This document shows, piece by piece, positions 12,419 through 64,000 of a stretch of 64,000 nucleotides of DNA. The DNA is taken from NCBI GenBank assembly GCA_033558025.1, contig JAUCEF010000005.1, positions 6,014,001-6,078,000 on the forward strand, in the 5' to 3' direction. The first letter of the stretch is position 1. Each line of letters starts with the position of its first letter. Under the pieces are notes generated by a model, which saw only the letters and a program-made list of their open reading frames with translations, made no database searches and was not told where the DNA came from. Origin of the DNA: Phytophthora sp. 'mugwort' (Eukaryota; Oomycota; Peronosporomycetes; Peronosporales; Peronosporaceae). A program made the position numbers and the translations under genes.

Positions 12419-12425
12419 GGGGGCG

Positions 12426-21270: not shown

Positions 21271-21277
21271 GGGGGCG

Positions 21278-21940: not shown

Positions 21941-21944
21941 AACC

Positions 21945-26012: not shown

Positions 26013-26019
26013 GGGGGCG

Positions 26020-26362
26020 TATTGAGGGTTGCCGGGTTTTGGTACTGTGTACCAGTAACCGGTTAACCCGAACCGGTCCAACACGATCCCGCGATGTTTA
26101 CGGTACGTTGTTTACGCAACCGATGATTAGACGAGTAGGATGATTGGACGAGTGCGGAGTGTTGGTGATTGGATGCACCAAATGATTGGATGCAGGGCTG
26201 CATATCTATGTGGTAGACTAGGTAGTGTAAGCTCCGATAAATCAATCACTTTCGAATCTTCCTTCTTCAGCTCAAGTGGTCTTCACTCCGGTCCCCGCAC
26301 CCAAGTGCAGAACTCCCTTCGCTAAACCCAAGCCTCGCTTCAAGACCTCAACACCTTTATCA
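26020..26362 (+). repeat. LTR2 (plus)
   Basis: 343 bp, TATTGAGGG to CCTTTATCA, between the mosaic pol on its left and a primer binding site plus gag on its right. It is shared by two internal regions as in the A1 array. Confidence 0.92.
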
Positions 26363-27594: not shown

Positions 27595-27944
27595 TATTGA
27601 CGGTTACCGGTTTGGTATCAGTTATTAGCCGTGAACCGGTTAACCCGAACCGGTCCAATCCGAACCCACGTTGATTATGGTGATTACGGTAAGTTGTTTA
27701 CGCCACCGATGATTAGACGAGTAGGATGATTGGACGAACACCGGTGAGTGATGGTTGATTAGATGCACTAGGTGATAGGACGCAGGGTCGCGTGTCTATA
27801 ACAGTAGGGTGTAAGCTCCAACAATTCAATCACTTTCGAATCTTCATTCTACCCCTCAAGTGCCTTCGCTCCGGTCCCGCCGTCTGCGACGTCCCTCCCT
27901 CCGCTTCGTACAAGCTTCGTGTCCAAGATCCATACCTTTCATCA
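27595..27944 (+). repeat. LTR1 inserted next to A2 gag
   Basis: 350 bp, TATTGACGG to TTTCATCA. It is preceded by interrupted A2 gag, not by a purine tract, so this is a true element start. No matching target duplication is found at the far end of the array. Confidence 0.93.
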
Positions 27945-27948
27945 GGTT

Positions 27949-30900: not shown

Positions 30901-31986
30901 GCTTCGCGCGTGTGGAACGAGACCTTCGACGAGTTCGTGTGCTCCATCGGCTTTCAAGTATCGGCGTTCGACCCGTGCCTCTACATCAAGATCGTTGACG
31001 GTCACTGCGTGCTAGTGCTGGTCTACGTGGATGACGTGCTGATTACCGGAAGTTCACCCGAACTGATCTCACGCACGAAGACCGACCTCAAGACACGCTT
31101 CGAGATGACCGACAGCGGCAAGTGCGCGTTCGTTCTTGGGATCGAATTGGTGGACGGCCCGGACGGCAGCGTGACGATGTGTCAGCGCCGCTATGTGGAT
31201 GACATTCTCAAGCGTTTTGGTATGGACGAGTGCAAGGCCGTGGTGAGTCCCGTCGACATAAGCACTCGACTGATTTCAAGTGACGCAGCGACCAAGGTGA
31301 ACGCTCCGTTTCGCGAAGCTGTTGGTGCTCTGATGCACTTGATGACTGCCACGCGCCCGGACATCGCGTACGCCGTTGGCTATGCGTCGCGCTTCATGGA
31401 GAACCCTCAAGAAGAACACTGGGTTGCGGTCAAGCGTATCTTTCGCTACCTGCAAGGCACCAAGACGCATGGGATCTGCTTCAAGCCGGGTGACAACATC
31501 GACTTTCGCGGGTACTCGGACGCGGACTGGGCTGGCGACCTCGCGGACCGCAAGTCGACTTCCGGCTACACGTTCATGCTAATGGGTGCACCAGTGAGCT
31601 GGGGAAGCAAGAAGCAGTCAAGTGTTTCGCTGTCTACGAGTGAGGCGGAGTACATCGCACTCAGTCTGGCGATCCAAGAGGGCAAGTGGATTCATCGCCT
31701 GCTGCGCGAGATTCTGGCGGCCGCTAATGAGACTGGACCCGAGCTCATGATCCGCGAAGACAACCAGTCGTGCATCAAGATGACGAAGAACCCAGTAAAC
31801 CACGGTCGCGCCAAGCACATCGACATCAAGTACCACCACATCCGCGATGAAGTGAAGCGCGGTGAAGTCAAGCTCGAGTACTGCGAGACTTCTGTGATGC
31901 TAGCGGACATCATGACGAAGGCTCTCGCGGGACCACGCCATACGGATCTGACGGCGGCTCTCGGCATTCGTGGGACTTCGCATTGA
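27949..31986 (+). CDS. Ty1/copia gag-pol polyprotein, A1/A2 mosaic, intact frame
   Basis: 1345-codon uninterrupted frame with gag, CCHC knuckle, protease VDSGATHHI, the integrase D,D(35)E triad, YVDD reverse transcriptase and a complete RNase H. The backbone is A1, but gag from about EMSNAELRS to [10 protein letters not shown], the integrase stretch [12 protein letters not shown] and YKSEPSVKH are A2-type. This indicates template switching or gene conversion between subfamilies. It carries QKYSIDY, where other A1 copies have QKYGIDY, near the start of RT. The LTR1 copies at 27595 and 31994 flank it and look identical by eye, so it is a candidate active element. Confidence 0.94.
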
Positions 31987-31993
31987 GGGGGCG

Positions 31994-32343
31994 TATTGAC
32001 GGTTACCGGTTTGGTATCAGTTATTAGCCGTGAACCGGTTAACCCGAACCGGTCCAATCCGAACCCACGTTGATTATGGTGATTACGGTAAGTTGTTTAC
32101 GCCACCGATGATTAGACGAGTAGGATGATTGGACGAACACCGGTGAGTGATGGTTGATTAGATGCACTAGGTGATAGGACGCAGGGTCGCGTGTCTATAA
32201 CAGTAGGGTGTAAGCTCCAACAATTCAATCACTTTCGAATCTTCATTCTACCCCTCAAGTGCCTTCGCTCCGGTCCCGCCGTCTGCGACGTCCCTCCCTC
32301 CGCTTCGTACAAGCTTCGTGTCCAAGATCCATACCTTTCATCA
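31994..32343 (+). repeat. LTR1 shared by two internal regions
   Basis: 350 bp. 3' LTR of the intact copy and 5' LTR of the chimeric copy that follows; the period from the previous LTR1 is 4399 bp, the same as in the 3625-12775 array. Confidence 0.93.
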
Positions 32344-32347
32344 GGTT

Positions 32348-36611: not shown

Positions 36612-38249
36612 GCAAGTGGAGAAGAAGACCACGAAGCGGCCTACGTCGTGGATTCAGTGGAAGAAATGCCGACCACATTCAAGTCGATGATGGAAATCCA
36701 GCAACGCGGCCAAGTGGAAGGATGCGTGCTTCTCAGAAGTCAATTCGCTTAGCAAGAAAAGACATGGGTGTTGGTGCTACTGCCAAAGGGTCGCAAGGCA
36801 ATCGGCTGTCGATGGGTGTTTCGCATCAAGGAGAATCAAGCTGCAGAGATCGAGCGATTCAAGGCGCGACTAATGGCCAAGGGAATTTCACAGAAGTACG
36901 GCATCGACTATGAAGAGACGTTTGCGCCGGTAGCCCAGTTCACCGATCAAGGTTTTGCTCAGTTAGCGGCTAAGTACAAACGGACGGTGCACCAGATGGA
37001 TGTCAAGACAGCTTTTCAACCGACTACTTGACGAAGACATCTACATGGCGCAGCCGGACGGATATGTCGATGACGTTCACCCAGACTATGTCTGCCAGCT
37101 GAAGCGTTCCCTTTACGGTCTGAAGCAGTCGCCGCGGATGGGGAACCAGACCATCGACAAGTTCATGCTCGTAATGGGTTCACGAAGTGCAAAGCCGATC
37201 ACTGCATCTACTTTAAGTAGGACGATCAAGACATGATCTTCGTCGCACTCTATGTCGACGACCTGGTCCTCGCATTCAACAACGACGAGCTGCTCCAAAT
37301 GACGAAGAAGGCACTAAGTGAGCGGTTCGAGATGACAGACCTCGGCCAGCTCAAGTACTTCCTCGGCATGGAAATCGATCAAGATGTGACGACAGGGAAG
37401 GTGTCCATGCGTCAGACCAAGTTTGCGAAAGACATTCTGGAGAAGTTTGGCATGGAGAACAGCAACCCCGTCAAGACGCCGCAAGATCCAGGACTCAAGT
37501 TGACCAAGGTCATGTGCGAAGGAGGCTGCAAGCATGGGGAGACCATGGCAAAGGTGCCGTACCGCAATGCTGTCGGCTGCCTGATGTATCTCATGGTGGG
37601 GACTCGACCGGACCTCGCTGCTGCAGTGGGAGTTCTCAGCCAGTTTGCTTCAGATCCTTGTCCGACACATTGGCAGGCGCTCAAGAGGGTTTTTAGGTAC
37701 ATTCAAGGGACGAAGGCACACGGTATCGAGTTCCAAGCCAGCTGCAAGGACGGACTCGAAGGATACTCGGATGCAGATTGGGCTGGCGACATGGAAACTC
37801 GACGGAGCACAAGCGGCTACGCGTTCATGATGAACGGCCGGTGCATCAGCTGGAGAAGCAAGAAGCAGCGCACCGTGGCGCTGTCATCGACGGAGGCGGA
37901 ATACATGGTGCTGATTGAAGTAGCACAAGAGGCGATTTCGCTGAAGGCATTTCTGTGTGAACCCGGCAAGATGAAGAACGATGAAGCAGTCAATATTTAC
38001 GAGGACAATCAAGGCTCCATCGCGTTGGCCAAGAACCCCGAGTTTCACAAGCGCACCAAGCACATCGACATCCGCTACCACTTTGTTCGCGAGAAAGTGG
38101 AAGACGGCCAAGTGGTGTTGCAATATTGCTCGACGAAGGACATGAAGGCAGATCTGATGACCAAGCCGATTACTGCTGTCCAGTGCGAAAGCCTTCGAAG
38201 CATGCTGGGAATTCAAGCATCAAGCGCTGCCGAGCCGGGAGTATTGTAA
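36612..38249 (+). pseudogene. Family B2 pol remnant: RT and RNase H
   Basis: Starts just before [12 protein letters not shown] of the RT linker. The first 600 bp carry several indels and stops (for example a TAG near 36750 and a disrupted AFLNGLLDED block near 37015). From 37233 a clean frame encodes the rest of RT (ALYVDDLVL) and a full RNase H ([25 protein letters not shown]). That frame ends at a TAA lying 6-8 bp inside the LTR at 38242. The protein is family B but diverged from the copies at 43.5-51 kb, so it is an older lineage. It has no gag, protease or integrase. Confidence 0.9.
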
Positions 38250-38574
38250 GGAGGCATCTCGTCCAGCCCCGGCGTACCAGTAGAAACCGGTATGGCCGTC
38301 AAGTCCGTGGAGCCATAATCACTTGTGTGATCATGGGACACTGATGATGGCACATGGATTACGGGACGCTGTTGACGTATCGACGATTACATTCATGTGG
38401 GTACAAGATTGTGGGTACAAGATGGGGATACGACGTGTCACTCGCTGACTGGCTGGAAGAACTCAGTAGCCAGTAAGGAATCCAGTAGAGTGTATCCAGC
38501 AGGTAGAAGAGAGGCTTAGAGTAGCTTAGCGAAATCAATCACTTTGCATTTGCTCTAAAGAACACAAGCCTTTT
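38242..38574 (+). repeat. LTR-B2
   Basis: 333 bp, TATTGTAAGGAGGC to AAGCCTTTT. It is related to LTR-B over its whole length, with a shared GTGGGTACAAGATTGTGGGTACA block and TCACTTTGCATTT core, but diverged. An inverted A2 element joins its end. B gag resumes beyond that element, so this LTR appears once to have led into gag. Confidence 0.9.
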
Positions 38575-38695
38575 TCCTACTCGTCTAATCATCGGTTGCG
38601 TAAACAATGTACCGTAAACATCGCGGGATCGTGTTGGACCGGTTCGGGTTAACCGGTTACTGGTACACAGTACCAAAACCCGGCAACCCTCAATA
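38575..38695 (-). repeat. Truncated LTR2 (inverted 3' LTR of the A2 element)
   Basis: Only the U3 part (121 bp, ending at the TATTGAGGG start at 38695) is left; the R and U5 regions are missing. The truncation abuts the end of LTR-B2. Confidence 0.9.
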
Positions 38696-38702
38696 CGCCC
38701 CC

Positions 38703-41700
38703 TTAATGCGAACACGCGTGGATTCCGAGGGACGCCGTCAGATCCATGTGGCGCGGTCCTGGCAGCGCCTTGGTCATGATGTCCGCGAGCATGATTGAAG
38801 TCTCACAATACTCGAGCTTGACTTCGCCGCGCTTGACCTCATCACGGATGTGATGGTACTTGATGTCGATGTGCTTGGCGCGACCATGGTTCACTGGGTT
38901 CTTCGTCATCTTGATGCACGACTGGTTGTCTTCGAGGATCTTGAGCTCTGGCCCCGATTCGTTCGCTGCCGTCAAAATCTCGCACAACAGGCGATGAATC
39001 CACTTGCCTTCTTGGACGGCCAGACTGAGCGCGATGTATTCCGCTTCGCTCGTTGATAGCGACACACTTGACTGTTTCTTGCTTCCCCAACTGACTGGCG
39101 CGCCCATCAAAATGAACGTATAGCCCGAAGTTGACTTGCGATCGGAATGGTCGCCGGCCCAGTCTGCGTCTGAGTAGCCGCGAAAGTCTACCTTGTCACC
39201 GGGTTTGAAGCAGATTCCATGCGTCTTGGTGCCTTGTAGATAGCGAAAAATGCGCTTGACCGCAACCCAGTGTTCCTCTTGGGGGTTCTCCATGAAGCGC
39301 GATACATAGCCTACTGCGTACGCGATATCCGGGCGAGTAGCAGTCATCAAGTGCATGAGGGCACCCACAGCTTCGCGAAACGGAGCGTTCACCTTGGTCG
39401 CTGCGTCACTTGGAACCAGTCGAGTGCTCATGTCTACCGGACTCACCACAGCCTTGCACTCGTCCATACCGAAACGCTTCAGGATATCATCCACATAACG
39501 CCGCTGGCACATCGTCACGCTGCCGTCCCGGCCATCCACCAGCTCGATTCCAAGGACGAACACACACTTGCCACTGTCAGTCATTTCGAAGCGTGTCTTG
39601 AGGTCGTTCTTCGTGCGTGAGATCAGCTCGGGTGAACTTCTGGTCACCAACGCATCGTCCACGTAGACCAGCACGAGCACACAGTGGCCATCGACAACCT
39701 TGATGTAGAGGCACGGGTCGAAGGCTGAAACTTGAAAACCGATAGAACACACGAATTCGTCGAAGGTTTCGTTCCACACGCGCGAAGCTTGCTTGAGACC
39801 GTAGATCGCCTTGACCAGTTCCAGGCAGTCGAAGTCATCGTCCAGCTCGACCCCTTCTGGCACCACGCAGTACACGACTTCCTTCATGACGCCGTATAGG
39901 AATGCAGTCACCACGTCGAGTTGGTCCAGAGGCCAGTCGAAATACTTGGCGATCGCGATGACCATGCGCAACGTCACGTACTTGACCACGGGCGAGAACG
40001 TCTCCGTGTAGTCGATGCCGTACTTCTGCTTGAAACCCTTGGCCACCAGGCGCGCCTTGTATTTCTCGACCGATCCGTCGGCTTTGCGCTTGATCTTGAA
40101 CACCCACTTGGTACCGATGGCGCGTTGTCCGCTGGGCAACTTGGCAGCACGAAACACACCACGAAGTCGCATCGACTTGAGTTCCGCACGAACAGCCTTG
40201 CGCCAGTGCAGTTGGTCCGGGCCGTTGACCGCTTCTTGGAATGTCGACGGCTCCGATAAGTCCACGGCTGCTTCGACCGCGTTGGCACTTGCACGCCAAA
40301 ACACAGATGGAGTCGATTCTTCATCTTGGTCTCCTGACTTTTCTTCTTCGTCTGCGTCTGCTCGGTGCGGAGGGGAGTAGTTCGGCGCACTTGCTTCTTC
40401 CAGTCCAGGTCGATGACGCACAGCTCGCGGTTTTCTGGCAGCTTCATCTTCGTCACTCGGGCGGCTCTTGCGCTTCCCTGCCTGCGTGTACTCCGTCTGG
40501 CGGAAACCATCATTGTCGATGTCGAGCGAGTCGAAGTCCAGGTCGTCGACATCTTCATCAGAAATCGGCGGTGAAAGTCCAAAGGTCGATTCATCGAAGT
40601 TGACATCGCGACTGATGACCACCTGCCCCGCCTCGATGTCATAAAGTCGATACGCCTTGGACACTTCTTCGTAACCCAGGAACAATCCGGCGCGAGCCTT
40701 GGGATCCCACTTGAGTCGCTTCTCCTTCGGAGTCAGGATGTACGTCCGACAGCCGAACACACGCATGTGCTTCACACTCGGCTTGGAGTTGTAGACGATC
40801 TCGAACGGAGTCTTGTGCTCGATCTTGGGTGACGGCAGACGATTCTTCACGTAGATGGCAGTCATCGCCGCCTCAGCCCAGAAACACTTGTCCAGCTTAG
40901 CGTGATGCAGCATGCTGCGGCCGATCGTGACGATAGTTCGGATGGCTCTCTCTGCCGTGCCGTTGGTCTGGTGCGCGTACGGAACCGTGGTTTGCTGCTC
41001 GATGCCTTCGTCTTCGTAGAAGTCGCTGAGCGAGTTGGTCGCAAACTCACGAGCTCCGTCGTGCCGCACAAACTTGACCTTCTTGCCGAACTGCTTCTGC
41101 ACCTTCATGATGTACGTCTTGATGCAGTCTTCGCTCTCCGACTTGGCACGCAGGCAGAAACCCTTCATGCATCCACTGGCTTCGTCCACGATCAGTAGCA
41201 GGTACTTGCTGCCGCCAAGCGAGTTTACCTCCATGGGTCCGCAGATGTCGAAGTGGAGCAGCTCAAATGTGTCGTAGCGACGCTTGTCACGGTTGCTTGG
41301 GAATGGTTTTTGGACCATTTTGCCTTGCTGGCAACCACGACACACACTTGGTCCACTCGACTTGGAAGGTGCTTTCGCGTCCTTGATCATCTTGGTGTCG
41401 ACCATCTTGCGAAGAACCTCGACTGGAGCGTGACCCATACGCGCGTGCAAATCGACCGTCCTTCCACTTGTCGCCGCATTTGCCGATCGCTGAGGTGTGC
41501 GAAGCCAGTAGAGTCCATCCACGAGATCCGCCGTCGCCACCACTTGATTCGAGTCCTTGCGCGAAACGTGCATCTCAGTGCCGTCAAATACCACTTGGAA
41601 CTTGCCATGCTTGTTTATCTGCGGCACTGAAAGCAGATTCTTGCTCATATTTGGCACGTAAAGCGCGTTCTTGATCTCGATCTCGCGCTCGTCGCCGTTA

Positions 41701-42743
41701 GGCAGGACCACTCTTTCCACGATGGTCCCCACACCCTTGATGGCAGCCTTGTTGCCATCGGCCACCGAAAGTTCGCCTTCATTTCGCTCGATCAAATTGG
41801 CGAATTTGGACTTGTCGTTGCAAATGTGGTGCGTGGCACCGCTGTCGACCGCCCACATCCCGGACACATTCTTGCCCGTCGAAACCCCACATTCCAGTGA
41901 AACCGCGAACGCTACTCGATCGTAGTCGTAGTCGTAGCCGTTGCTGTCGTTTCTCCACTGGATGTTGTTGGCCCCGCGTCCACGGCCGCTGCCGCCGCGT
42001 CTTGGCCCTCTGTTCTCGTCCTTCTGCTTGGTCCAGCACTTGTCAATGACATGCCCCAATTTTCCGCAGTACGTGCATTGGCGAGGCTCACGGTCGGTGT
42101 TGAACGCCTTGGCCGCGTTCTCAGTCTTCACCGTCGCCGTCTTCTCGCCTTGTCGCTTGATGTGCTCGTTCGTGAGCACCTTCACAACGTCTTGCGACCG
42201 CAGCTCTGCATTGCTCATCTCCAAGTTCAGCACGACGTTCTCGTAGCTCTTGGGGAGACTGCGCAGCAAGCAGATCGCCACGTCCTCGTCCTCCATCTTG
42301 GCACCGATGCTGCTGAGCTTGGCGCTGATGTTGAGGACCTCGTTGCAATGATGCAACACATTGCCGCCTTCCGACATCTCCATGCTGAAGAGTTGGCGCT
42401 TCAGGTAGATGCGTCCAGCCTTCTGCGAACCACCGTACAGCGTCTTCAGGCGCGACCAGGCAACCCACGCTTCCTCGCAGTCATCGACCACATGATGGTA
42501 GTCGGCGTCCATGTGAAGCAACATCAGTCCAAAAGCGATGTTGCTCGACTTGACATACTGGTCCTTGGCCCGGGAGTCCGTAAAGGATGGAGACGTTTCC
42601 CGATTCACCACATGCCACGTCGACTTGGTCAGGAACACGCCACGCATGTAGCGGTTCCACGTCGCGTAGTTGTCTCCGTTGAACTTGTCGATGGAGACCT
42701 TGGTCGAGACGTCTTGGGCAGAGGACATGGTGCTTGGGCTCAT
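38703..42743 (-). CDS. Ty1/copia gag-pol polyprotein, A2 mosaic, intact frame
   Basis: Minus-strand frame of 1346 codons starting at the ATG (42743) within the primer binding site and ending at TAA (38703-38705). All catalytic motifs are intact: [14 protein letters not shown] knuckle, VDSGATHHI protease, FDICGP / RHDGAREF / NGTAERAI integrase, YVDD RT and RNase H D/E/D. It is mosaic: an A2 start; an A1 gag middle ([14 protein letters not shown]) and A1 [12 protein letters not shown]3-like pieces in the integrase finger ([20 protein letters not shown]), in RT ([18 protein letters not shown]) and in RNase H ([15 protein letters not shown]). The protein could be functional, but the element's 3' LTR is truncated. 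Confidence 0.94.
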
Positions 42744-42747
42744 AACC

Positions 42748-43090
42748 TGATAAAAGGTATGGATCTTGATAAGCGAAGCTTGGACGGAGCGAAGGAGGTT
42801 CTGCACTTGGTGCGAAGACCGGAGTGAAGACCACTTGAGCTGAAAAAGGAAGATTCGAAAGTGATTGATTTATCGGAGCTTACATTACCTAGTCTACCAC
42901 ATAGATATGCAGCCCTGCATCCAATCATTTGGTGCATCCAATCACCAACACTCCGCACTCGTCCAATCATCCTACTCGTCTAATCATCGGTTGCGTAAAC
43001 AACGTACCGTAAACATCGCGGGATCGTGTTGGACCGGTTCGGGTTAACCGGTTACTGGTACACAGTACCAAAACCTGGCCACCCTCAATA
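42748..43090 (-). repeat. LTR2 (inverted 5' LTR)
   Basis: 343 bp LTR with the AAGATCC-type U5 variant also seen at 1368-1710. Its U3 end joins family B gag at GACCCC, 34 bp downstream of where the B LTR should end, so the primer binding site and first gag codons of the B copy were lost. Confidence 0.92.
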
Positions 43091-43158
43091 GACCCCGACT
43101 ACGCCTTCGCCATGGACGCCACGCAGACCTCCACCTCTCGCATCAACAAGTTCGCCGG
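43091..43158 (+). pseudogene. Family B gag 5' piece (about 22 codons)
   Basis: Encodes DPDYAFAMDATQTSTSRINKFAG, near the gag N terminus, and stops at GCCGG against the terminus of the inverted LTR-B. The same five bases begin the minus-strand B gag at 47502. Its sequence differs from the B gag starts at 13355 and 47862 (A for D in KFDG; ATQTSTS). Confidence 0.88.
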
Positions 43159-43513
43159 AAAAGGCTTGGTCGCTTGATGGCAAAATGCAAAGTGATTGAT
43201 TTAGGTCCTTAGTTCGCAAACTCCTTGCTACCTCTAAGCCTACAGTTCTACCTACTGGATACACTCTACTGGATTCTCGACTGGATACTGAGTTGCTTCA
43301 GCCAATCAGGGAGTGCCACGTAGAGCCCATCATGTACCCACAATCTTGTACCCACCCGTGGCGTAATCGTCCATGGCGTAAACACCGTCCCATAAACACC
43401 GTGACGTAATCTTCGTCTCGTAATCACAGAAATGATTGCGGTGCCACTGAGTGAAGGTCATACCGGTATCCTACCGGTATACAGCAGCTGGTCGAGACGT
43501 CTCCTTGACAACA
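43159..43513 (-). repeat. LTR-B (inverted 3' LTR)
   Basis: 355 bp, starting on the minus strand TGTTGTC after the purine tract GAGTGGGAG and ending GCCTTTT against gag at 43158. The stop codon of the minus-strand pol lies within it. Confidence 0.93.
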
Positions 43514-46500
43514 CTCCCACTCGACTCGACATCTGTTGTCCCTTGGATCCCGAGCTTTTTCCGAAGAACTTCAAACGCACAGCAGTGATCGCCTTCGTCA
43601 TGATGTCGGCCAGCATGTCGGTTGTCGAGACGTACTGCAGCACCACTTGACCGTCTTCCACCTTTTCGCGCACGAAGTGGTAGTGAATGTCGATGTGCTT
43701 GGTGCGCTTGTGGAACTCCGGGTTCTTGGCCAACGCGATGGAGCCTTGATTGTCCTCGTAGATCAGCACTGCGTCGTCGTTCTTGATCTCACCGATTTCA
43801 TGCAGGAACGCCTTGAGCCACAACGCCTCTTGCGTAGCTTCCGAGAGCGCCATATACTCGGCCTCTGTCGACGATAGCGCTACTGTCCTCTGCTTCTTGC
43901 TGCGCCAGCTCACGCATCCACCGTTCATCATGAATGCGTAGCCACTTGTACTGCGACGTGACTCGATATCGCCCGCCCAGTCCGCATCTGAGTAGCCACG
44001 AATACCTTCTTTGTCCTTCGCGGTGAACTCGATGCCGTGCGTCGTCGTGCCTCGAATATACCGTAGTACTCGCTTGAGTGCCTGCCAGTGTGTGGGACAT
44101 GGATCCGACGCGAATTGACTTAGTGAGCCCACTGCTGTCGCCAGGTCCGGACGTGTACCCACCATTAAGTACATGAGGCAGCCTACAGCATTCCGGTACG
44201 GCACGTTCTTCATGGTGTCTTCGTGCTTGCAGTCTCCTTCGCACATGTTCTTGGTTAGCTTGAGTCCCGGATCTTGTGGTGTTTTCACGGGCTTGCAATC
44301 TTCCATGCCAAACTTGTTCAGGATACTTTGCGCGAATTTGGTCTGCCGAATCGTTACAACGCCGACTTCTCGATCTTGCTTGATTTCCATACCGAGAAAG
44401 TAGCTGAGGTCGCCAAGGTCCGTCATCTCGAACCGATCGCTGAGTGCCCGCTTGGTCGATTCCAGCAAGTCATCGTCGTTGCTTGCAATGATGAGGTCGT
44501 CAACGTAGAGCACCACCAGTACCATGATGTCGCCGTCCCTCTTGATGTACACGCAGTGGTCGGTCTTACACTTGGTGAACTCGATCTTTAGCATGAAGTC
44601 GTCGATGGTCTGGTTCCACATGCGTGGCGACTGTTTCAATCCGTACAATGACCGCTTGAGCTTGCATACGTACTCCGGGTGGTCTTCGTCAACGTATCCG
44701 TCGGGCTGTTGCATGTAGATTTCCTCGTCCAGCACGCCATTCAGGAAAGCCGTCTTGACATCCATCTGATTCAGCTTGAGACCGTACTTGGCAGCCATGC
44801 TCAACACCACCCGGATCGACGTGAACTTGGCCACTGGTGCGAATGTTTCCTCATAGTCGATGCCGTACTTCTGCGAGAACCCCTTGGCCACCAGTCGCGC
44901 CTTGAACCGCTCGATCTCTCCGGCTTGGTTCTCCTTCACTCGAAACACCCATCGGCAGCCGATTGCCTTGCGTCCCTTAGGCAACGGCACCACGTCCCAC
45001 GTCTCGTTCTTGCGGAGCGACTCGACCTCCGAGTCACAAGCTTCCTTCCACTTGCTTGCGTCGTTGGATTCCATCGCCGACTTGAATGTGGCCGGCATTT
45101 CTCCCACTGAATCCACGACGTAAGCAGCCTCGACGTTTGCGTCTTCTTGCGCCACCGCAGACATCTCATCCAGTGTGTGATATCGGTTCTGCGAGGCATA
45201 CCGCTTGGCATCTGGAATCTCTACCGCTTCCTCCAGCGATTGCGTCCGCGGGTGTCGCTTGCTGCCGGGCTCGAAGTCTTCATCCCGTGCAACTTCTTCT
45301 TCATCCCCATCCGATCTAGACGATGAGGTTTCTTCATCCGTGGCAACTTCATCTTCTTCGTCTTGAACGTCCACGAGCACTTCCTTTAGTGCGTAATTCG
45401 TTTCCCACTGTCGGAAACGTCTTCCATAAGCTGTGCGTCGCGGCTTATCAGCACGCGACCACTCTCGAGTTCTTCAAACCGATACGCTTTCTCGTGTTCT
45501 GAGTATCCGAGCAAACGGCAACGCACCGATCGAGCGTCAAACTTGGACCGTTTTTCCTTTGGCACAAGCACGTACGCGTGGCAACCGAATACCTTCATAT
45601 TTGCCAGCAGTGGCTTCTTTCCTGTCCAAACCTGGTGCGGCGACTTGTCGTGGTTGATGACACGCGTCGGACACCGATTACGGAGGAACGTAGCTGTCAC
45701 GACAGCTTCACCCCAATACGTCTTGGGCAATCCAGCATGTTCCAGCATGCAGCGCGCACACTCCACCAACGTTCGATTCATTCGTTCCGCGACTCCATTG
45801 AGCTGAGGCGTGTACGGTGGAGTGAACTTCTGCACGATGCCGCGGTCACTGCAGAACTTCGCCAGTTGACTTGACGTGTACTCGCCACCGTTGTCGCTCC
45901 GCAGCATTTTCACGCGCTTGCCAGTCTGGGTCTCAGCTAACGCGACGAATTGCGCGAACTTGTCGGCCACCTCGGACTTGTTGCGCAATAGGTACACCAC
46001 ACAGAAGTGCGACTTGTCATCGATAAACGTGACAAAATAGCGCTTGCCGCCAAAGGTCGGCGTCTGCATGGGACCGCATACATCACTGTGTACGACTTCT
46101 AGCACTTGCTTCGCACGGTTTGGCGACGTCTTCATGTAGCTCACTCGCGTTTGCTTGCCGAGTGCGCATCCGTCGCATAACTCCCACTGCTTCACCGACG
46201 CCATGTCGATACCAACACCGTAGCCCTTCTTGACGATGGCGTCTAGACCGCCATGGCCGATGTGACCAAGTCGAAGGTGCCAGAGGTACGACGTGGTGTC
46301 CCCTTGGCGATCCTTCGGACTTGCCGCATTGGCCTCGTCAGGCATCATCGGAGTCATGCACAACTTGAACAGCCCTTTGCCCTCACGAGCGCCGAGCTTC
46401 CACTTGAGACCCTTCGTTTCAGCGAAGCATCCGTCGCTCTCGAAGATGACTGGCCCAACGTCCTTGGTAAACCGACCAACCGAAAACAGGTTGCGTGACA

Positions 46501-47502
46501 GCTTCGGAATGTGCCACACGTTCGTGAGCACACCCTTCTTCATGCCGCGCGGGGTCTCCATCGACATCACAATGTCGCCGGTCCCCACAGCCTGAACCAC
46601 ACCGTCGTCCGCGAGATGCACGTCACCGGAGAGATCTTCTTGTAGTTCTTCATGTACTCCTTCGAGTACGTCATGTGCTGCGTCGCACCCGACTCGACCA
46701 GCCACACTCCATTCGACTTGGAGGCACCCGTGTTACCACCAACCGAGAAGAGGAAGTCGCTAGAATCTTTATCCTGCGCGACATTCGCACGCTGCGACCG
46801 ATATCGCTCCGCGTCGTTCTGGATCCGCGATGGACATTCCGTGATCCAATGTCCAAACTTGCCGCAATTGTGGCACGCCACGGTCTTCTTCACCGGTCTG
46901 CCCTTGCGCTTGTTGTCCTTCATCATGAATGCTTGACCGTGCGCGGCTCCGTCGACGCCGCCACCTTGTTCCTTGCGCTTCATGTCCTCGTGCAGGAGCC
47001 GAGGCGTTACGAGTTCCCACGACAGCGAGTCGGCCCTTGACTCCAACGCCGTAATGAGGAACTGGTATGACTCGCTCAGGCTTCCAAGAAGCGTGATCAC
47101 CAAGTCCTCGCTGATCGGAGCGCCGACCGCGTCGAGCTGCTCCGCCAGCGTCTTGATCTTGTTGATGTGCTCCAGCACATCATCACCTTCGTCCATCATC
47201 GTCGTGAAGAAACGTCGACGAAGTAAGAGCTTGTTGGCCAAACTCTTCTTCTCGAAGTGTCCTTCCAGTCTTGACCATGCATCATGCGCGTCCTTCGCCG
47301 AGCGAACCAGCGGTAGCTGCGAATCCTCCATCGCGAGACAGATCATCGCCAGCGCCTTGCGCGACTTCTTCCGGAAGAGCGCTTGATCGGCCGCAGTCTG
47401 GCAGTGCTCCAGCTTCACTTCCCCACTTGTCACTCCCCACAGTTCGCGCTCCTCGAGCACCATCTGCATCTTGAATTTCCACGTGTGGAAGTTGGTTCCG
47501 GC
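43458..47502 (-). pseudogene. Family B gag-pol, inverted, lacking the gag start; two frameshifts and protease VESG
   Basis: Begins on the minus strand at GCCGGAACC in gag, beside the LTR-B at 47503, so the first ~25 gag codons are absent. It contains gag, the CHNCGKFGHWITEC knuckle and a protease motif VESGATQHM, in which the catalytic Asp is Glu. A 1 bp deletion at about 46625 and another before 45386 split the frame into three. The last frame (45380-43458) encodes RT with LYVDDL and a full RNase H, and terminates about 54 nt inside the 3' LTR. All three defects are shared with the plus-strand copy at 47862-51051, although this copy lacks one codon of EDD (near 47106). Confidence 0.92.
44404..47502. 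repeat. Left arm of a 3.1 kb near-perfect palindrome
   Basis: Pairs with 47952-51051 in reverse orientation; summed coordinates stay at 95454-95457 along the whole length, with one 3 bp indel. A 449 bp spacer (LTR-B plus the gag start) separates the arms. The encoded proteins differ at only a few residues (for example SNDDD against SNDND). Confidence 0.9.
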
Positions 47503-47857
47503 TGTTGTCAAGGAGACGTCTCGACCAGCTGCTGTATACCGGTAGGATACCGGTATGACCTTCACTCAGTGACACCGCAATCATTTATGTGATTACGAGA
47601 CGAAGATTACGTCACGGTGTTTATGGGACGGTGTTTACGCCATGGACGATTACGCCACGGGTGGGTACAAGATTGTGGGTACATGATGGGCTCTACGTGG
47701 CACTCCCTGATTGGCTGAAGCAACTCAGTATCCAGTCGAGAATCCAGTAGAGTGTATCCAGTAGGTAGAACTGTAGGCTTAGAGGTAGCAAGGAGTTTGC
47801 GAACTAAGGACCTAAATCAATCACTTTGCATTTTGCCATCAAGTGACCAAGCCTTTT
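47503..47857 (+). repeat. LTR-B at the palindrome centre
   Basis: 355 bp. It is the 5' LTR of the plus-strand B copy, and its U3 start also abuts the truncated gag of the minus-strand copy. A single LTR therefore serves as the hinge of the inverted duplication. Confidence 0.93.
47819..47834 (+). promoter_or_regulatory. Oomycete-like initiator plus flanking core promoter in LTR-B (representative)
   Basis: AATCACTTTGCATTTT matches the 16-nt oomycete core promoter consensus (GCTCATTYYNCAWTTT) at 13 positions. It lies 24 bp before the LTR end, so the R region would be short. The same sequence occurs at 13314-13327 and in the other LTR-B copies. Family A LTRs keep the TCACTTT half at the corresponding place (for example 8262-8268) but have CGAATCTTC after it. 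The transcription start is inferred. Confidence 0.55.
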
Positions 47858-47861
47858 GGTT

Positions 47862-50800
47862 ATGAGCCCAAGCCCCGTCTTCCCTGACCAAGACCCCAAC
47901 TACGCCTTCGCCATGGACGCCACTTCGACTACCGCCCGCATTAACAAGTTCGACGGAACTAACTTCCACACGTGGAAGTTCAAGATGCAGATGGTGCTCG
48001 AGGAGCGCGAACTGTGGGAAGTGACAAGTGGGGAAGTGAAGCTGGAGCATTGCCAGACTGCGGTGAATCAAGTGCTCTTTCGGAAGAAGTCGCGCAAGGC
48101 GCTGGCGATGATCTGTCTCGCGATGGAGGATTCGCAGCTACCGCTGGTTCGCTCGGCGAAGGACGCGCATGATGCATGGTCAAGACTGGAAGGACACTTC
48201 GAGAAGAAGAGTTTGGCCAACAAGCTCTTTCTTCGTCGACGTTTCTTCACGACGATGATGGACGAAGGTGATGATGTGCTGGAGCACATCAACAAGATCA
48301 AGACGCTGGCGGAGCAGCTCGACGCGGTCGGCGCTCCGATCAGCGAGGACGACTTGGTGATCACGCTTCTTGGAAGCCTGAGCGAGTCATACCAGTTCCT
48401 CATTACGGCGTTGGAGTCAAGGGCCGACTCGCTGTCGTGGGAACTCGTAACGCCTCGGCTCCTGCACGAGGACATGAAGCGCAAGGAACAAGGTGGCGGC
48501 GTCGACGGAGCCGCGCACGGTCAAGCATTCATGATGAAGGACAACAAGCGCAAGGGCAGACCGGTGAAGAAGACCGTGGCGTGCCACAATTGCGGCAAGT
48601 TTGGACATTGGATCACGGAATGTCCATCGCGGATCCAGAACGACGCGGAGCGATATCGGTCGCAGCGTGCGAATGTCGCGCAGGATAAAGATTCTAGCGA
48701 CTTCCTCTTCTCGGTTGGTGGTAACACGGGTGCCTCCAAGTCGAATGGAGTGTGGCTGGTCGAGTCGGGTGCGACGCAGCACATGACGTACTCGAAGGAG
48801 TACATGAAGAACTACAAGAAGATCTCTCCGGTGACGTGCATCTCGCGGACGACGGTGTGGTTCAGGCTGTGGGGACCGGCGACATTGTGATGTCGATGGA
48901 GACCCCGCGCGGCATGAAGAAGGGTGTGCTCACGAACGTGTGGCACATTCCGAAGCTGTCACGCAACCTGTTTTCGGTTGGTCGGTTTACCAAGGACGTT
49001 GGGCCAGTCATCTTCGAGAGCGACGGATGCTTCGCTGAAACGAAGGGTCTCAAGTGGAAGCTCGGCGCTCGTGAGGGCAAAGGGCTGTTCAAGTTGTGCA
49101 TGACTCCGATGATGCCTGACGAGGCCAATGCGGCAAGTCCGAAGGATCGCCAAGGGGACACCACGTCGTACCTCTGGCACCTTCGACTTGGTCACATCGG
49201 CCATGGCGGTCTAGACGCCATCGTCAAGAAGGGCTACGGTGTTGGTATCGACATGGCGTCGGTGAAGCAGTGGGAGTTATGCGACGGATGCGCACTCGGC
49301 AAGCAAACGCGAGTGAGCTACATGAAGACGTCGCCAAACCGTGCGAAGCAAGTGCTAGAAGTCGTACACAGTGATGTATGCGGTCCCATGCAGACGCCGA
49401 CCTTTGGTGGCAAGCGCTATTTTGTCACGTTTATCGATGACAAGTCGCACTTCTGTGTGGTGTACCTATTGCGCAACAAGTCCGAGGTGGCCGACAAGTT
49501 CGCGCAATTCGTCGCGTTAGCTGAGACCCAGACTGGCAAGCGCGTGAAAATGCTGCGGAGCGACAACGGTGGCGAGTACACGTCAAGTCAACTGGCGAAG
49601 TTCTGCAGTGACCGCGGCATCGTGCAGAAGTTCACTCCACCGTACACGCCTCAGCTCAATGGAGTCGCGGAACGAATGAATCGAACGTTGGTGGAGTGTG
49701 CGCGCTGCATGCTGGAACATGCTGGATTGCCCAAGACGTATTGGGGTGAAGCTGTCGTGACAGCTACGTTCCTCCGTAATCGGTGTCCGACGCGTGTCAT
49801 CAACCACGACAAGTCGCCGCACCAGGTTTGGACAGGAAAGAAGCCACTGCTGGCAAATATGAAGGTATTCGGTTGCCACGCGTACGTGCTTGTGCCAAAG
49901 GAAAAACGGTCCAAGTTTGACGCTCGATCGGTGCGTTGCCGTTTGCTCGGATACTCAGAACACGAGAAAGCGTATCGGTTTGAAGAACTCGAGAGTGGTC
50001 GCGTGCTGATAAGCCGCGACGCACAGCTTATGGAAGACGTTTCCGACAGTGGGAAACGAATTACGCACTAAAGGAAGTGCTCGTGGACGTTCAAGACGAA
50101 GAAGATGAAGTTGCCACGGATGAAGAAACCTCATCGTCTAGATCGGATGGGGATGAAGAAGAAGTTGCACGGGATGAAGACTTCGAGCCCGGCAGCAAGC
50201 GACACCCGCGGACGCAATCGCTGGAGGAAGCGGTAGAGATTCCAGATGCCAAGCGGTATGCCTCGCAGAACCGATATCACACACTGGATGAGATGTCTGC
50301 GGTGGCGCAAGAAGACGCAAACGTCGAGGCTGCTTACGTCGTGGATTCAGTGGGAGAAATGCCGGCCACATTCAAGTCGGCGATGGAATCCAACGACGCA
50401 AGCAAGTGGAAGGAAGCTTGTGACTCGGAGGTCGAGTCGCTCCGCAAGAACGAGACGTGGGACGTGGTGCCGTTGCCTAAGGGACGCAAGGCAATCGGCT
50501 GCCGATGGGTGTTTCGAGTGAAGGAGAACCAAGCCGGAGAGATCGAGCGGTTCAAGGCGCGACTGGTGGCCAAGGGGTTCTCGCAGAAGTACGGCATCGA
50601 CTATGAGGAAACATTCGCACCAGTGGCCAAGTTCACGTCGATCCGGGTGGTGTTGAGCATGGCTGCCAAGTACGGTCTCAAGCTGAATCAGATGGATGTC
50701 AAGACGGCTTTCCTGAATGGCGTGCTGGACGAGGAAATCTACATGCAACAGCCCGACGGATACGTTGACGAAGACCACCCGGAGTACGTATGCAAGCTCA

Positions 50801-51051
50801 AGCGGTCATTGTACGGATTGAAACAGTCGCCACGCATGTGGAACCAGACCATCGACGACTTCATGCTAAAGATCGAGTTCACCAAGTGTAAGACCGACCA
50901 CTGCGTGTACATCAAGAGGGACGGCGACATCATGGTACTGGTGGTGCTCTACGTTGACGACCTCATCATTGCAAGCAACGACAATGACTTGCTGGAATCG
51001 ACCAAGCGGGCACTCAGCGATCGGTTCGAGATGACGGACCTTGGCGATCTC
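47862..51051 (+). pseudogene. Family B gag-pol, truncated in RT, same lesions as its inverted twin
   Basis: ATG in the primer binding site. Gag, CCHC knuckle and the VESGATQHM protease are in the first frame, which ends at 48890 after a 1 bp deletion near 48832. Integrase (DVCGPM, RSDNGGEY, NGVAERMN) is in the second frame, which stops at 50071. The linker and RT follow in the third frame as far as EMTDLGDL, where an inverted LTR2 begins at 51052. RNase H is missing. The catalytic Asp of the protease is replaced by Glu. Its gag start (ATSTTARINKFDG) differs from the inverted twin's, so the 5' end came from another B copy. Confidence 0.92.
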
Positions 51052-51394
51052 TGATAAAGGTGTTGAGGTCTTGAAGCGAGGCTTGGGTTGAGCGGAGGGA
51101 GTTCTGCACTTGGGTGCGAGGACCGGAGTGAAGACCACTTGAGCTGAAGAAGGAAGATTCGAAAGTGATTGATTTATCGGAGCTTACACTACCTAGTCTA
51201 CCACATAGATATGCAGCCCTGCATCCAATCATTTGGTGCATCCAATCACCAACACTCCGCACTCGTCCAATCATCCTACTCGTCTAATCATCGGTTGCGT
51301 AAACAACGTACCGTAAACATCGCGGGATCGTGTTGGACCGGTTCGGGTTAACCGGTTACTGGTACACAGTACCAAAACCCGGCAACCCTCAATA
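51052..51394 (-). repeat. LTR2 (inverted 3' LTR of the A3 copy)
   Basis: 343 bp. Its terminus faces truncated B pol (GGCGATCTC) on the left. It mirrors the LTR2 at 36276-36611, which faces B2 pol from the other side. Confidence 0.92.
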
Positions 51395-51401
51395 CGCCCC
51401 C

Positions 51402-54400
51402 TCAATGCGAACACGCGTGGATTCCGAGGGACGCCGCCAGATCCATGTGGCGCGGTCCTGGCAGCGCCTTGGTCATGATGTCCGCGAGCATGATTGAAGT
51501 CTCACAATACTCGAGCTTGACTTCGCCGCGCTTGACCTCATCACGGATGTGATGGTACTTGATGTCGATGTGCTTGGCGCGACCATGGTTCACTGGGTTC
51601 TTCGTCATCTTGATGCACGACTGGTTGTCTTCGAGGATCTTGAGCTCTGGCCCCGATTCGTTCGCTGCCGTTAAAATCTCGCACAACAGGCGATGAATCC
51701 ACTTGCCTTCTTGGACGGCCAGACTGAACGCGATGTATTCCGCCTCGCTCGTAGACAGCGACACACTTGACTGCTTCTTGCTTCCCCAACCGACTGGCGC
51801 GCCCATCAAAATGTACGCATAGCCCGAAGTTGACTTGCGATCGGAATGGTCGCCGGCCCAGTCTGCGTCCGAGTAGCCGCGGAAGTCCACCTTGTCACCG
51901 GGTTTGAAACAGATTCCATGCGACTTGGTCCCTTGTAAATAGCGGAGGATTCGCTTCACTTTAACCCAGTGCTCGACTTGAGGGTTTTCCATGAAGCGCG
52001 ACACATATCCCACGGCGAAAGCGATATCTGGTCGCGTCGCAGTCATCAAGTACATGAGTGCACCCAAGCTTCACGAAAGGGAACGTTGATCTTGGTCGGC
52101 GCGTTGCTTGGAACCAGTCGAGAGCTCAAATCCGCGGGACTTACCACAGCCTTGCAGTCATCCATGCCGAAACGCTTGAGAATGTCGTCCACGTAGCGCC
52201 GTTGGCACATTGTTACACTGCCGTCAGCATTGTCGACCAGCTCGATACCCAAGACAAAGGCACACTTCCCGCTGTCGGTCATCTCAAAACGTGTCTTCAG
52301 GTCACTCTTGGGGCGTGCGATCAGTTCGGCCGAACTTCCGGTTACTAAGACGTCGTCCACGTGCACCAGCAACAGAACACAGTGACCATCCACAATCTTG
52401 ATGTAGAGGCACGGATCGTAGGCCGAAACTTGAAAACCGATGGAGCACACGAATTCGTCGAAGGTTTCGTTCCACACGCGCGAAGCTTGCTTGAGACCGT
52501 AGATCGCCTTGACCAGTTCCAGGCAGTCGAAGTCATCGTCCAGCTCGACCCCTTCTGGCACCACGCAGTACACGACTTCCTTCATGACGCCGTATAGGAA
52601 TGCAGTCACCACGTCGAGTTGGTCCAGAGGCCAGTCGAAATACTTGGCGATCGCGATGACCATGCGCAACGTCACGTACTTGACCACGGGCGAGAACGTC
52701 TCCGTGTAGTCGATGCCGTACTTCTGCTTGAAACCCTTGGCCACCAGGCGCGCCTTGTATTTCTCGACCGATCCGTCGGCTTTGCGCTTGATCTTGAACA
52801 CCCACTTGGTACCGATGGCGCGTTGTCCGCTGGGCAACTTGGCAGCACGAAACACACCACGAAGTCGCATCGACTTGAGTTCCGCACGAACAGCCTTGCG
52901 CCAATGCACTTGATCAGGTCCGTTGACCGCGTCTTGGAATGTCGTCGGCTCAGACAACTCACCGGCTTCCACTGAGTTGGCAGTTGCTCGCCAAAATACG
53001 GGAGGAGTGGAATCGTCTTCTTCGTTGTCTTGAGCATCCTTCTCTTCTTCGTCAGGTAGTCCAGGTTCCATTCGAACACTCGCTCGGCGTTTGGCTTGGC
53101 GCTCAAACAAGGTGACAGGAGCGCTTGCTTCTTCCAAACCAGTCGCACGGCGAACAGGACGCGAGTTCACTGACATGGTATCCGCATCACTTGGTCGAGT
53201 CTTGCGCTTCCCCGCCTGCTTGAATTCGGTCCGACCCGCCGAGTCATCATCACCAATCTCGAGCGAGTCGAAGTCCAGGTTCATATCTTCGTCGTCATTA
53301 CTTGAGATCGCTTCTCCTTCGGGGTCAGGACGTACGTCCGACATCCAAACACACGCATGTGCTTCACACTTGGCTTGAGCTTGTATACAATCTCGAACGG
53401 AGTCTTGTTTTCGACCTTGGGCGACGGCAAGCGGTTCTTGACATAAATTGCAGCCATCGCTGCTTCGCCCCAAAAACACTTGTCCAGCTTTGCATGATGC
53501 AGCATGCTGCGACCAATCGTAACGATGGTCCGAATAGCTCTCTCTGCCGTGCCGTTGGTTTGGTGCGCGTACGGAACCGTGGTCTGCTGCTCGATGCCTT
53601 GATCTTCGTAGAAGGCCTTGAGCGAATTAGTAGCAAACTCACGGGCTCCGTCGTGGCGCACGAACTTGATACGTTTGCCGAACTGCGTCTGCACCTTCAT
53701 GATGTAGGTCTTGAGGCATTCTTCGCTCTCCGACTTGGCACTTAAGCAGAAACCCTTCATGCATCCGCTGGCTTCGTCCACTATGAGCAGCAAATATTTG
53801 CTGCCACCCAGTGAGTCTTGTTCCATGGGGCCGCAGATGTCGAAGTGGAGTAGCTCAAATACGTCGTAGTGACGCTTGTCGCGGTTGCTTGGGAACGGTT
53901 TTTGGACCATTTTGCCTTGCTGGCAACCACGACACACACTTGGTCCACTCGACTTGGAAGGTGCTTTCGCGTCCTTGATCATGCCACTGCTGACCATTTT
54001 GTGCAGCACGTCGATCGGAGCGTGGCCCATCCGCGCGTGTAGATCCACGTTGCGCGTTGACGTCGCCGCATTCACCGAATGTTGTGGTATGCTTAGCCAG
54101 TAGAGACCGTCGACGAGGTCAGCCGTTGCCACCACTTGCTTCGAGCCCTTCCGCGCGACATGCATGCTCGCACCGTCGAACACCACTTGAAACTTGCCAC
54201 TCTTGTTAATCTGCGGCACTGAAAGCAGATTCTTGTTCATCTTCGGCACGTACAGCGCGTCCTTGATTTCGATGTCGCGCTCGTCGCCGTTGGGCAGAAC
54301 TACTCGTTCGATGATAGTTCCCACACCCTTAATCTCGGCCTTGTTTCCGTCCGCTACCGATAGTTCGCCTTCGTCTTGCTCATTCAGCGTGGCGAACTTG

Positions 54401-55323
54401 GTCTTGTCATTGCAAATGTGGTGCGTTGCGCCGCTGTCGACCGCCCACATCCCGGGCATATCCTTGCCCGTCGATTTTCCGCATTTCAACGAAACCGCAA
54501 ACGCGACACGGTCGTAGTCGTAGTCGTCGTTGCGCCACTGAACATGGTTTGCTCCGCGTCCACGGCCGTTGCCGCCGCGTCTTGGCCCTCGGTTCTCGTC
54601 CTTCTGCTTGGTCCAGCACTTGTCAATGCCATGCCCCACTTTACCGCAGTACGTGCATTGGCGAGATTCTCGCTCGGCACTGAACGCCTTGGCCGCGTCT
54701 TCAGTTTTCACCGACGGAGTCTTCTCGCCCTGCCGCTTGATATGCTCGTTCGTGAGCACCTTCACGACGTCTTGCGTCTTCAGCTCCGCGCTACTCATCT
54801 CCAAGTTCAGTACGACGTTCTCGTAGCTCTTGGGGAGACTGCGCAGCAAGCAGATCGCCACGTCCTCGTCCTCCATCTTGGCGCCGATACTGCTGAGCTT
54901 GGCGCTGATGTTCAGGACATCATTGCAATGATGCAAGACATTGCCGCCTTCCGACATCTCCATGCTGAAGAGCTGTCGCTTGAGGTAGATGCGACCAGCC
55001 TTCTGCGATCCACCGTACAGCGTCTTCAAGCGCGTCCACGCGACCCAGGCTTCCTCGCAGTCATCGACCACGTGATGGTAGTCAGCGTCCATGTGGAGCA
55101 ACATCAGTCCGAAAGCGTTGTTGCTCGACTTGACGTAGTCGTCCTTGGCCCGGGAGTCCGTGAAGCTTGGCTTCGTCTCCCGGTTCACGACATGCCACAC
55201 CGACTTGGTCAGGAACACGCCACGCATGTAGCGGTTCCACGTCGCGTAGTTGTCTCCGTTGAACTTGTCGATGGAGACCTTGGTCGAGACGTCTTGGGCA
55301 GAGGACATGGTGCTTGGGCTCAT
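51402..55323 (-). pseudogene. Family A3 copia gag-pol, inverted, with integrase deletion and frameshift
   Basis: Minus-strand ATG at 55323 in the primer binding site. The first frame to 53281 covers gag, knuckle ([14 protein letters not shown]), protease VDSGATHHI and the integrase triad. After TPKEKR the integrase C-terminal module is deleted and the frame shifts. The second frame (to 52046) carries the acidic linker and RT with HVDD. A 1 bp deletion near 52066 moves RNase H to a third frame, which ends at TGA 51402-51404. Unlike the plus-strand relative at 32348 it has a genuine A3 gag start and LTR2 on both sides, so it is the better representative of this defective lineage. Dead as an autonomous element. 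Confidence 0.92.
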
Positions 55324-55327
55324 AACC

Positions 55328-55669
55328 TGATAAAGGTGTTGAGGTCTTGAAGCGAGGCTTGGGTTTAGCGAAGGGAGTTCTGCACTTGGGTGCGGGGACC
55401 GGAGTGAAGACCACTTGAGCTGAAAAAGGAAGATTCGAAAGTGATTGATTTATCGGAGCTTACACTACCTAGTCTACCACATAGATATGCAGCCCTGCAT
55501 CCAATCATTTGGTGCATCCAATCACCAACACTCTGTACTCGTCCAGTCATCCTACTCGTCTAATCATCGGTTGCGTAAACAACGTACCGTAAACATCACG
55601 GGATCGTGTTGGACCGTTCGGGTTAACCGGTTACTGGTATACACTACCAAAACCCGGCAACCTTCAATA
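55328..55669 (-). repeat. LTR2 (inverted 5' LTR of the A3 copy)
   Basis: 342 bp, with more private substitutions than other LTR2 copies (TATACACTACC, CTGTACTCG, GGACCGTTCGGG), so it looks older. Its U3 end (TATTGAAGG on the minus strand) interrupts an LTR-B2 at ATGACAC. Confidence 0.9.
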
Positions 55670-63175: not shown

Positions 63176-64000
63176 TCATGTTGTGGTCGATTCTAGGTAG
63201 TAGACCCACGGTGGTAGCTCCTTCAACTGTGGACAAGATACAAACAATTTGCCAGTCTCGTTCGCACCGCCTTGTATCGACTTTTCACATCTTGCTGACG
63301 ACAAAGTAGCGTCGACCTTGACCGTGATGAGCTTAGACGACTTGGCAGGGATCGACAACGATGTCGTCGATAGTACAAAACGCGAGTTGTCGACCATGAG
63401 CTCAAACTCTTTTGGAGTCGAGAAAACGTTCTTGAACTCAATGTCTTTTGTTGTCGAGAAGACGTAGGGACCTCGAGGCTGTGGGGGCACCGATAGCCCT
63501 TGCAATGTGCACTTGTACTCTCCGACAGTATCGGAATAGAGTGTCAATGTGTCTCGGAATTCGCCAATAGCTTCAGGCTCAAACTTGACAAGGATGGACT
63601 CCAGCTTTCCCTCCCAGGAAGAGGTCCCTTCGACTTTGCAAGTTGCTGGCACGGAGAACGACGTTGGGTCCTGGACGGAGCATGAGAGCTCAGCCGTAGC
63701 ATTTGCGTAGCCTGTGAAGTTAAATGTCTGCGTTTGCGAGCCACCGAGAGGGACCTTGAAGTACAAAATACGTTCAGGACCGACTGATTGCGTGCTCAGT
63801 ACCAGATTGTACGTATACTCGCCGAGCTCCACGAAGCTAATAGTTAACCGGTCTTCAAGCGGTGTATCGGAGTGCAGTATTGGTCGGTATTCAATCTCAT
63901 ACGAGCCTTCCGATCGACCGCTGATCTCGCTCAACTGTCGTACGCGAATGGAAGAGCTGGAACATTTCCACCAGTGAACTTTGTCCACAAAATTGATCTG
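63176..64000 (-). CDS. HYDIN/CFAP47-like flagellar protein, C-terminal part
   Basis: Minus-strand frame open from the right edge to TGA 63176-63178, 274 residues visible. The sequence is beta-rich, with repeated Ig-like (ASH/MSP-type) patterns: PLEDRLTISFVELGEYTYNL, VKFEPEAIGEFRDTLTLYSD and STTSLSIPAKSSKLITVKVD. It ends SCPQLKELPPWVYYLE. That pattern is typical of the end of CFAP47/HYDIN-family proteins, which sit at the axonemal central apparatus. No ATG is needed in this part; the gene begins outside the window. It converges on the STN1-like gene with only 39 bp between stop codons. It could be another ASH-domain protein; the CFAP47 assignment rests on the Ig-like pattern and the terminal WVYYL. 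Confidence 0.6.
   Translation of the reverse strand, partial: QINFVDKVHWWKCSSSSIRVRQLSEISGRSEGSYEIEYRPILHSDTPLEDRLTISFVELGEYTYNLVLSTQSVGPERILYFKVPLGGSQTQTFNFTGYANATAELSCSVQDPTSFSVPATCKVEGTSSWEGKLESILVKFEPEAIGEFRDTLTLYSDTVGEYKCTLQGLSVPPQPRGPYVFSTTKDIEFKNVFSTPKEFELMVDNSRFVLSTTSLSIPAKSSKLITVKVDATLSSARCEKSIQGGANETGKLFVSCPQLKELPPWVYYLESTTT

Follow-up and report, generated by a model that had tools for sequence, protein, structure and literature searches.

An inverted LTR/gag structure in a copia array of Phytophthora sp. 'mugwort' is probably an opposite-orientation nest rearranged by inversion

The question raised by the locus

In a 64,000-nucleotide stretch of Phytophthora sp. 'mugwort' (GenBank assembly GCA_033558025.1, contig JAUCEF010000005.1, positions 6,014,001 to 6,078,000; hereafter the window), two pieces of gag from a copia retrotransposon family that we call B are each joined to the terminus of an inverted long terminal repeat (LTR) of the same family, LTR-B, and both end at the same five letters, GCCGG. 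A reading made from the sequence alone had taken this as the signature of autointegration, a B element having integrated into itself and been captured in the chromosome. We asked whether this is what the locus records, and our answer is that a B element probably inserted in opposite orientation into a relative, after which inversion between the inverted arms, together with gene conversion, produced the present order. The target of that insertion is written E1 and the inserted element E2, and the parts of the locus are as follows.

43091–43158, plus strand: gag start of the broken target E1, of a type we call gs1 (direct reading; 100% match at eight other places)
43154–43158, plus strand: GCCGG, copy 1 of the 5-bp target-site duplication (reading, LTR catalogue and match to the rejoined site)
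43159–43513, minus strand: LTR-B of 355 bp, its 3′ terminus joined to the E1 gag; putative 3′ LTR of E2
43514–47106, minus strand: minus arm with pol and most of gag (Pfam RVT_2 and rve), matching the plus arm at 99.9% over about 2,700 bp
47107–47502, minus strand: remaining E1 gag head, broken at GCCGG (sequence comparison)
47498–47502, minus strand: copy 2 of the target duplication, CCGGC on the plus strand (reading and LTR catalogue)
47503–47857, plus strand: LTR-B of 355 bp, its unique 3′ (U3) start joined to the E1 gag; putative 5′ LTR of E2
47858–48346, plus strand: post-LTR sequence and E2 gag head, of a gag type other than that of E1
48347–51051, plus strand: tail of the plus arm, near-identical to the minus arm and cut by an element of a second copia family, A

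Searches covered the genome assembly of 86.26 Mb in 154 contigs, in which the window lies on contig 5. The best 40–41 places were taken for each sequence, and our catalogue of 41 LTR-B copies is the best-scoring part of the matches; BLAST rows shorter than 60 bp, weaker overlapping matches and LTR-B matches of fewer than 330 reference bases were left out.

The two joints

Direct reading gave both joints as the sequence-only reading had described them. The plus-strand gag start at 43091–43158 ends ...AACAAGTTCGCCGG and abuts the 3′ terminus of the minus-strand LTR-B at 43159. On the minus strand, the gag has GCCGG as its first letters at 47502 and lies directly against the plus-strand LTR-B, whose U3 start is at 47503. 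The joined LTRs are both full length (355 bp, reference positions 1–355), are 99.2% identical to each other and have exact termini at both joints, and a search for each joint as a 25- or 26-letter pattern, with up to 2 mismatches allowed, gave a single place in the genome. A single B gag was broken to give the piece from 43091 to 43158 and the piece running down from 47502, since the exact gs1 start, GCCGG and the same gag are found unbroken elsewhere in the genome, and the rejoined halves match these intact copies, which represent the empty site, at 99.1% over 115 bp with no gap.

Duplications of 5 bp, the length typical of Ty1/copia, were found at other B copies as well: ATAAC and GCAAG surround two copies whose flanks match no A or B reference used, and GAAAC is an exact duplication around one B copy nested in A. 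Because of these exact duplications and the intact empty site, the GCCGG overlap is to be read as a target-site duplication and not as chance. Exact LTR termini, the 5-bp duplication and an ungapped rejoined gag therefore point to integrase as the maker of both joints, which on sequence evidence are real, and this part of the earlier claim stands. Integrase thus joined B LTRs to a B-family gag with a GCCGG duplication, and we infer that the gag belonged to a separate element. It is important to note that both LTR termini joined to inverted internal sequence of the same family, with a target duplication, are predicted equally by autointegration and by a nest that later underwent inversion. The inverted autointegration signature is thus unreadable from geometry alone, as the second route yields the same order and the same 5-bp overlap.

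The LTR that originally preceded the gs1 gag start is not preserved, the LTR at 38242 being of a related family, B′. We considered whether the gs1 start could be part of that B′ element (LTR 38241–38574) and rejected this, as eight other exact gs1 starts adjoin LTR-B of 81–99%.

Heads, tails and the proposed order of events

Comparison of the two arms provided the evidence that geometry could not. Over the 396 bp that follow the break, here called the heads, 11 substitutions and a 3-bp gap separate them, and the gag starts are only 83% identical, whereas the tails beyond 396 bp show 3 differences in about 2,700 bp (99.9%). Among the matches listed genome-wide, the nearest third tail reaches 97% over 1,107 bp, followed by two at 96%, and at least 34 places score above the minus head as relatives of the plus head. 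The abrupt change from differing heads to near-identical tails is as expected if the arms had recombined; such a tract would explain the tails and can be the inversion event itself.

The two joined LTRs share 235C and 255T, which the other 38 LTRs of the 355-bp type in the comparison all lack (40 of that type were compared, with the 312-bp-type copy L101 left out). They are therefore sisters from one integration, as both models predict, and they differ from each other at 3 places.

We propose that E2, a B copia element, would have inserted in opposite orientation into the gag of E1, a separate chromosomal element, so that E1 and E2 together formed long inverted repeats. Homologous recombination between these arms would then have inverted the stretch between them, gene conversion would have made the tails near-identical, and later A insertions and rearrangements would have cut both ends (43090 and 51051). 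By coordinates alone, flipping approximately 47107–48346 restores a complete minus-strand E2 within E1 with GCCGG on both sides. The empty site (99.1%) and the tail breakpoint are what these events would leave, and the separate target E1 is inferred alongside them. Beyond the joints, the flanking features are as follows.

38241–38574, plus strand: B′ LTR, about 73% identical to LTR-B and not the LTR of the broken gag
38575–43090, minus strand: inverted A element that separates the B′ LTR from the E1 gag start and is truncated in its left LTR (121 of 344 bp)
51052–55669, minus strand: A element interrupting the plus arm

A comparison case in family A

The sequence-only reading had counted a similar structure in family A as a sign that self-integration products are captured repeatedly. 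That structure consists of three parts.

21278–21619, plus strand: LTR of the inserted element, joined to the inverted target head (CGCAG on both sides)
21620–22287, minus strand: target head and its LTR (LTR at 21945–22287)
22288–26362, plus strand: rest of the target and its closing LTR (26020–26362)

Here too a target duplication, CGCAG, lies on both sides. Between the joined LTR end at 21278–21619 and the target LTR at 21945–22287 there are 8 substitutions and 1 gap; the gap and 6 of the substitutions fall in the last 69 columns, beside the joint. The target LTR and the closing LTR at 26020–26362 differ only twice, both times in the first 15 positions. Autointegration predicts that the joined LTR and the target LTR are sisters, and they are not, so the case fits the assignment of a target and an insert and not self-integration. 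The family-A pattern would accordingly be a nest plus inversion as well, unless the LTR end was replaced by a later conversion. Position 5, which is shared with the insert, suggests a hybrid LTR. As proof of such a hybrid we rejected the position-5 variant as weak, since it is present in 55 of 507 matching LTR starts. At 12776 another A LTR terminus abuts an inverted gag start. The LTR belongs to the A1 type, to which this gag start is only approximately 86% identical, too distant for self-integration.

Junctions elsewhere in the genome

Insertion into relatives is routine in this genome, and B elements have landed in A as often as in B. Non-native sequence adjoins the 3′ end of LTR-B in 20 of the 41 catalogue copies (8 in A, 8 in B or B′, 4 in neither) and the U3 end in 16 of the 41 (9 in A, 5 in B or B′, 2 in neither). 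At 15 of these 36 junctions we examined the 1.2 kb in which the partner LTR should lie and found one intact plain nest (L112; GAAAC, C3:2508186-2512995) and four full B-type LTRs with a mismatched flank or LTR type (L102, L103, L107, L110). No matching full LTR was present at the other 10 of the 15, three of which carried a partial or cut-off B-type LTR (L104, L115, L116), and some of these 10 may merely have been interrupted by later insertions.

Two junctions show the geometry of our locus with mixed LTR subtypes. At C7:5639993 a 355-type LTR lies inverted inside an element with its own LTR of the 312-bp type (85%; L013), and at C17:1212659 a 312-type LTR is joined to the inverted gag of a 355-type element, near the same gag position. 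The halves of nested insertions are dispersed, and the U3 partners of the first lie at C7:5465459(+) and C7:5500767(-), 175 and 139 kb away; these two halves are inverted copies with identical LTRs, 35 kb apart, and their LTRs differ from that at 5639993 at 5 places. Its rejoined site matches intact copies at 99.1%, and of the best six, five have a 312-type LTR and one (L014) a 355-type LTR. A B-in-A pair on C3 (AAAGT/ATAGT, one mismatch) has its halves 265 kb apart on opposite strands, a pairing that is tentative. As a separate observation, C3:2359613-2364362 and C7:5496347-5501121 each have ends of two kinds, one LTR being of the 312-bp type and the other of the 355-bp type, and are apparently chimeric elements.

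Weighing the explanations

Under autointegration, B complementary DNA (cDNA) would have attacked its own gag at GCCGG, the resulting circle with two inverted LTRs then entering the chromosome by an LTR crossover with a resident B copy. The junctions and order fit this exactly, inverted two-LTR circles are described as a product of Ty autointegration (PMC4751563), and elements of the gs1 type with LTR-B of 98–99% exist (L009, L010, L014). Since gs1-like copies also own the two best fetched third-party tails, one cDNA could hold all the parts. A single-cDNA origin in family B must deal with a target head that differs from the head at the plus LTR, which the crossover could explain, as long as it fell between LTR position 255 and the gag start; 70A and 85A in the plus LTR then need another explanation. 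The 99.9% tails need a separate event or a recombinant cDNA, as capture by LTR crossover does not supply them. The failed sister-LTR prediction in the parallel family-A case and the joining of different LTR subtypes at C7:5639993 and C17:1212659 tell against it further, and we regard autointegration as unlikely.

Less probable still is an assembly artefact, in which the true state would be a plain nest and the assembler flipped the segment between near-identical inverted arms of at least 2.7 kb. The arms are indeed long and 99.9% identical, but together with the segment they span less than 8 kb, within reach of one long read, their two heads are distinguishable, and on C7 a different junction has its inverted duplicate 35 kb off, too far for such an error. 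That two unrelated B insertions or breaks overlap by 5 bp through chance we consider highly improbable. B-in-B junctions are common in the array, but both joints here have exact LTR termini, the overlap is exactly the length of the duplication, and the joined LTRs share two variants absent from the others among the 40 compared.

Several observations weigh against the nest followed by inversion, and some of them lean towards autointegration. With each joint occurring once in the assembly, no unflipped copy was found at up to 2 mismatches. Template switching during reverse transcription could be an alternative source of the shared tails. Seen from the minus head the two heads are not clearly unrelated, as its best other place among the matches listed is the plus head, narrowly (97.5% vs 97.0%). 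The two best third-party tails among the fetched loci, those of L020 (95.3%) and L017 (94.5%), come from copies whose gag starts resemble gs1 (94% and 100%), so gs1 and the shared tail may belong together natively, as autointegration needs, and E1 would then have had this tail from the start. In the plus LTR, 70A is otherwise found only in the LTR at 16900–17254, and 85A in that LTR and one further copy, which suggests patchy conversion that blurs the history of the LTRs. Finally, a hand count gave an inverted target at 9 of 13 B or B′ joints and 6 of 17 A joints, a weak trend that points autointegration's way with too few cases to call, the 13 including both joints of the present locus (43158/47502) as well as duplicated sites.

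With these points considered, the opposite-orientation nest with later inversion and conversion remains the reading we think likely. The order from 38242 to 51051 does fit an inverted autointegrant recombined with a resident copy, as had been claimed, but the LTR(+) that starts it is B′ (about 73%) and not LTR-B. Autointegration is also not the necessary reading of this order, as the nest with inversion gives the same one and the near-identical tails point to recombination between the arms, a step that circle capture can do without. Repeated capture across two families loses its footing with the family-A LTRs and the two junctions of mixed subtype. An inversion with breakpoints in repeats, named by the sequence-only reading as what would speak against it, is now the model we favour, though it is not proven for B.

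The elements and the surrounding array

Copia elements, nested and in tandem, fill nearly all of the window from approximately 1 to 55900. An A polyprotein has Pfam Retrotran_gag_2 at 44–212, rve at 505–600 and RVT_2 at 873–1113, and in three B pieces gag is followed along the element by rve and then RVT_2; integrase upstream of reverse transcriptase and a copia-type gag place both in Ty1/copia. LTR-B runs TGTTG...CCTTTT (43159–43513, 47503–47857), unlike the usual TG...CA, and LTR-A runs TATTGA or TATTAA...TCA, ending in CA, with the following G belonging to the native post-LTR sequence. The post-LTR sequence GGTTATGAGCCCAAG (47858–47872, 26363 onward and other element starts) presumably resembles the anticodon arm of initiator tRNA-Met; half-tRNA priming is known in copia and Ty5.

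Among the matches listed, LTR-B has at least 41 on 10 contigs, mostly in one region per contig. Dense copia clusters, about one per contig, are the pattern of CoLT-type centromeres, and by this likeness the repeat-packed array resembles CoLT clusters and may be called centromere-like.

Tandem A elements with shared LTRs lie at 3625–12776 and 27595–32344, with units 98.9–99.7% identical. LTR-A starts are evenly spaced in three other places, C2:2198635-2224064, C3:2524597-2530560 and C2:2171788-2173458, the spacings being 3.60–3.65 kb (8 copies), 1987–1988 bp (4 copies) and 835 bp (3 copies); these are possible tandem arrays of retroelement pieces and candidate young satellites. Within the window, identity between 17546–21277 and 22288–26019 is a patchwork: 2,100 bp with 3 differences are followed by 1,200 bp with 114 and a final 432 bp with 4, a pattern that suggests gene-conversion tracts between neighbours. 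Beside the array, the open reading frame at 63176–63988 has its nearest named proteins in Phytophthora cinnamomi (80%) and P. kernoviae (75%).

Comparison with known systems

The locus is probably a rearranged nest of a known kind, fairly ordinary, and a good example of array scrambling. Its value is as a worked example of likely inversion and gene conversion among copia copies in a centromere-like oomycete array, and the sister-LTR and head/tail tests offer a way to tell autointegration from a nest with inversion. If autointegration were true, the array would preserve a short-lived by-product of retrotransposition, a suicide product, captured through recombination with a resident copy. Our limited literature search found no paper on an oomycete counterpart of the inverted LTR/gag structure, and the words 'nested' and 'gene conversion' are absent from the main text of the telomere-to-telomere paper PMC11139960.

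The Ty autointegration circles (PMC4751563) resemble the locus in having two LTRs in inverted arrangement. Those circles are extrachromosomal, however, whereas here we have a chromosomal block with heads of different types and recombined tails, and the abstract of that paper states that the yeast Ty junctions analysed there bore no signs of autointegration. Centromeres of Phytophthora sojae are described in PMC7082073 as CoLT-rich with clustered copia elements, usually one cluster per contig. Our A and B elements share with them the clustering of oomycete copia, a likeness of arrangement. A further parallel is maize CEN10, for which PMC4806543 describes nested and chimeric centromeric retroelements, mismatched target duplications and inversions. 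Insertion into relatives, chimeric elements, and inversions with duplications in a centromere are the shared features; the maize elements are CR elements, whereas those studied here are oomycete copia, and their inverted halves keep a matched 5-bp duplication.

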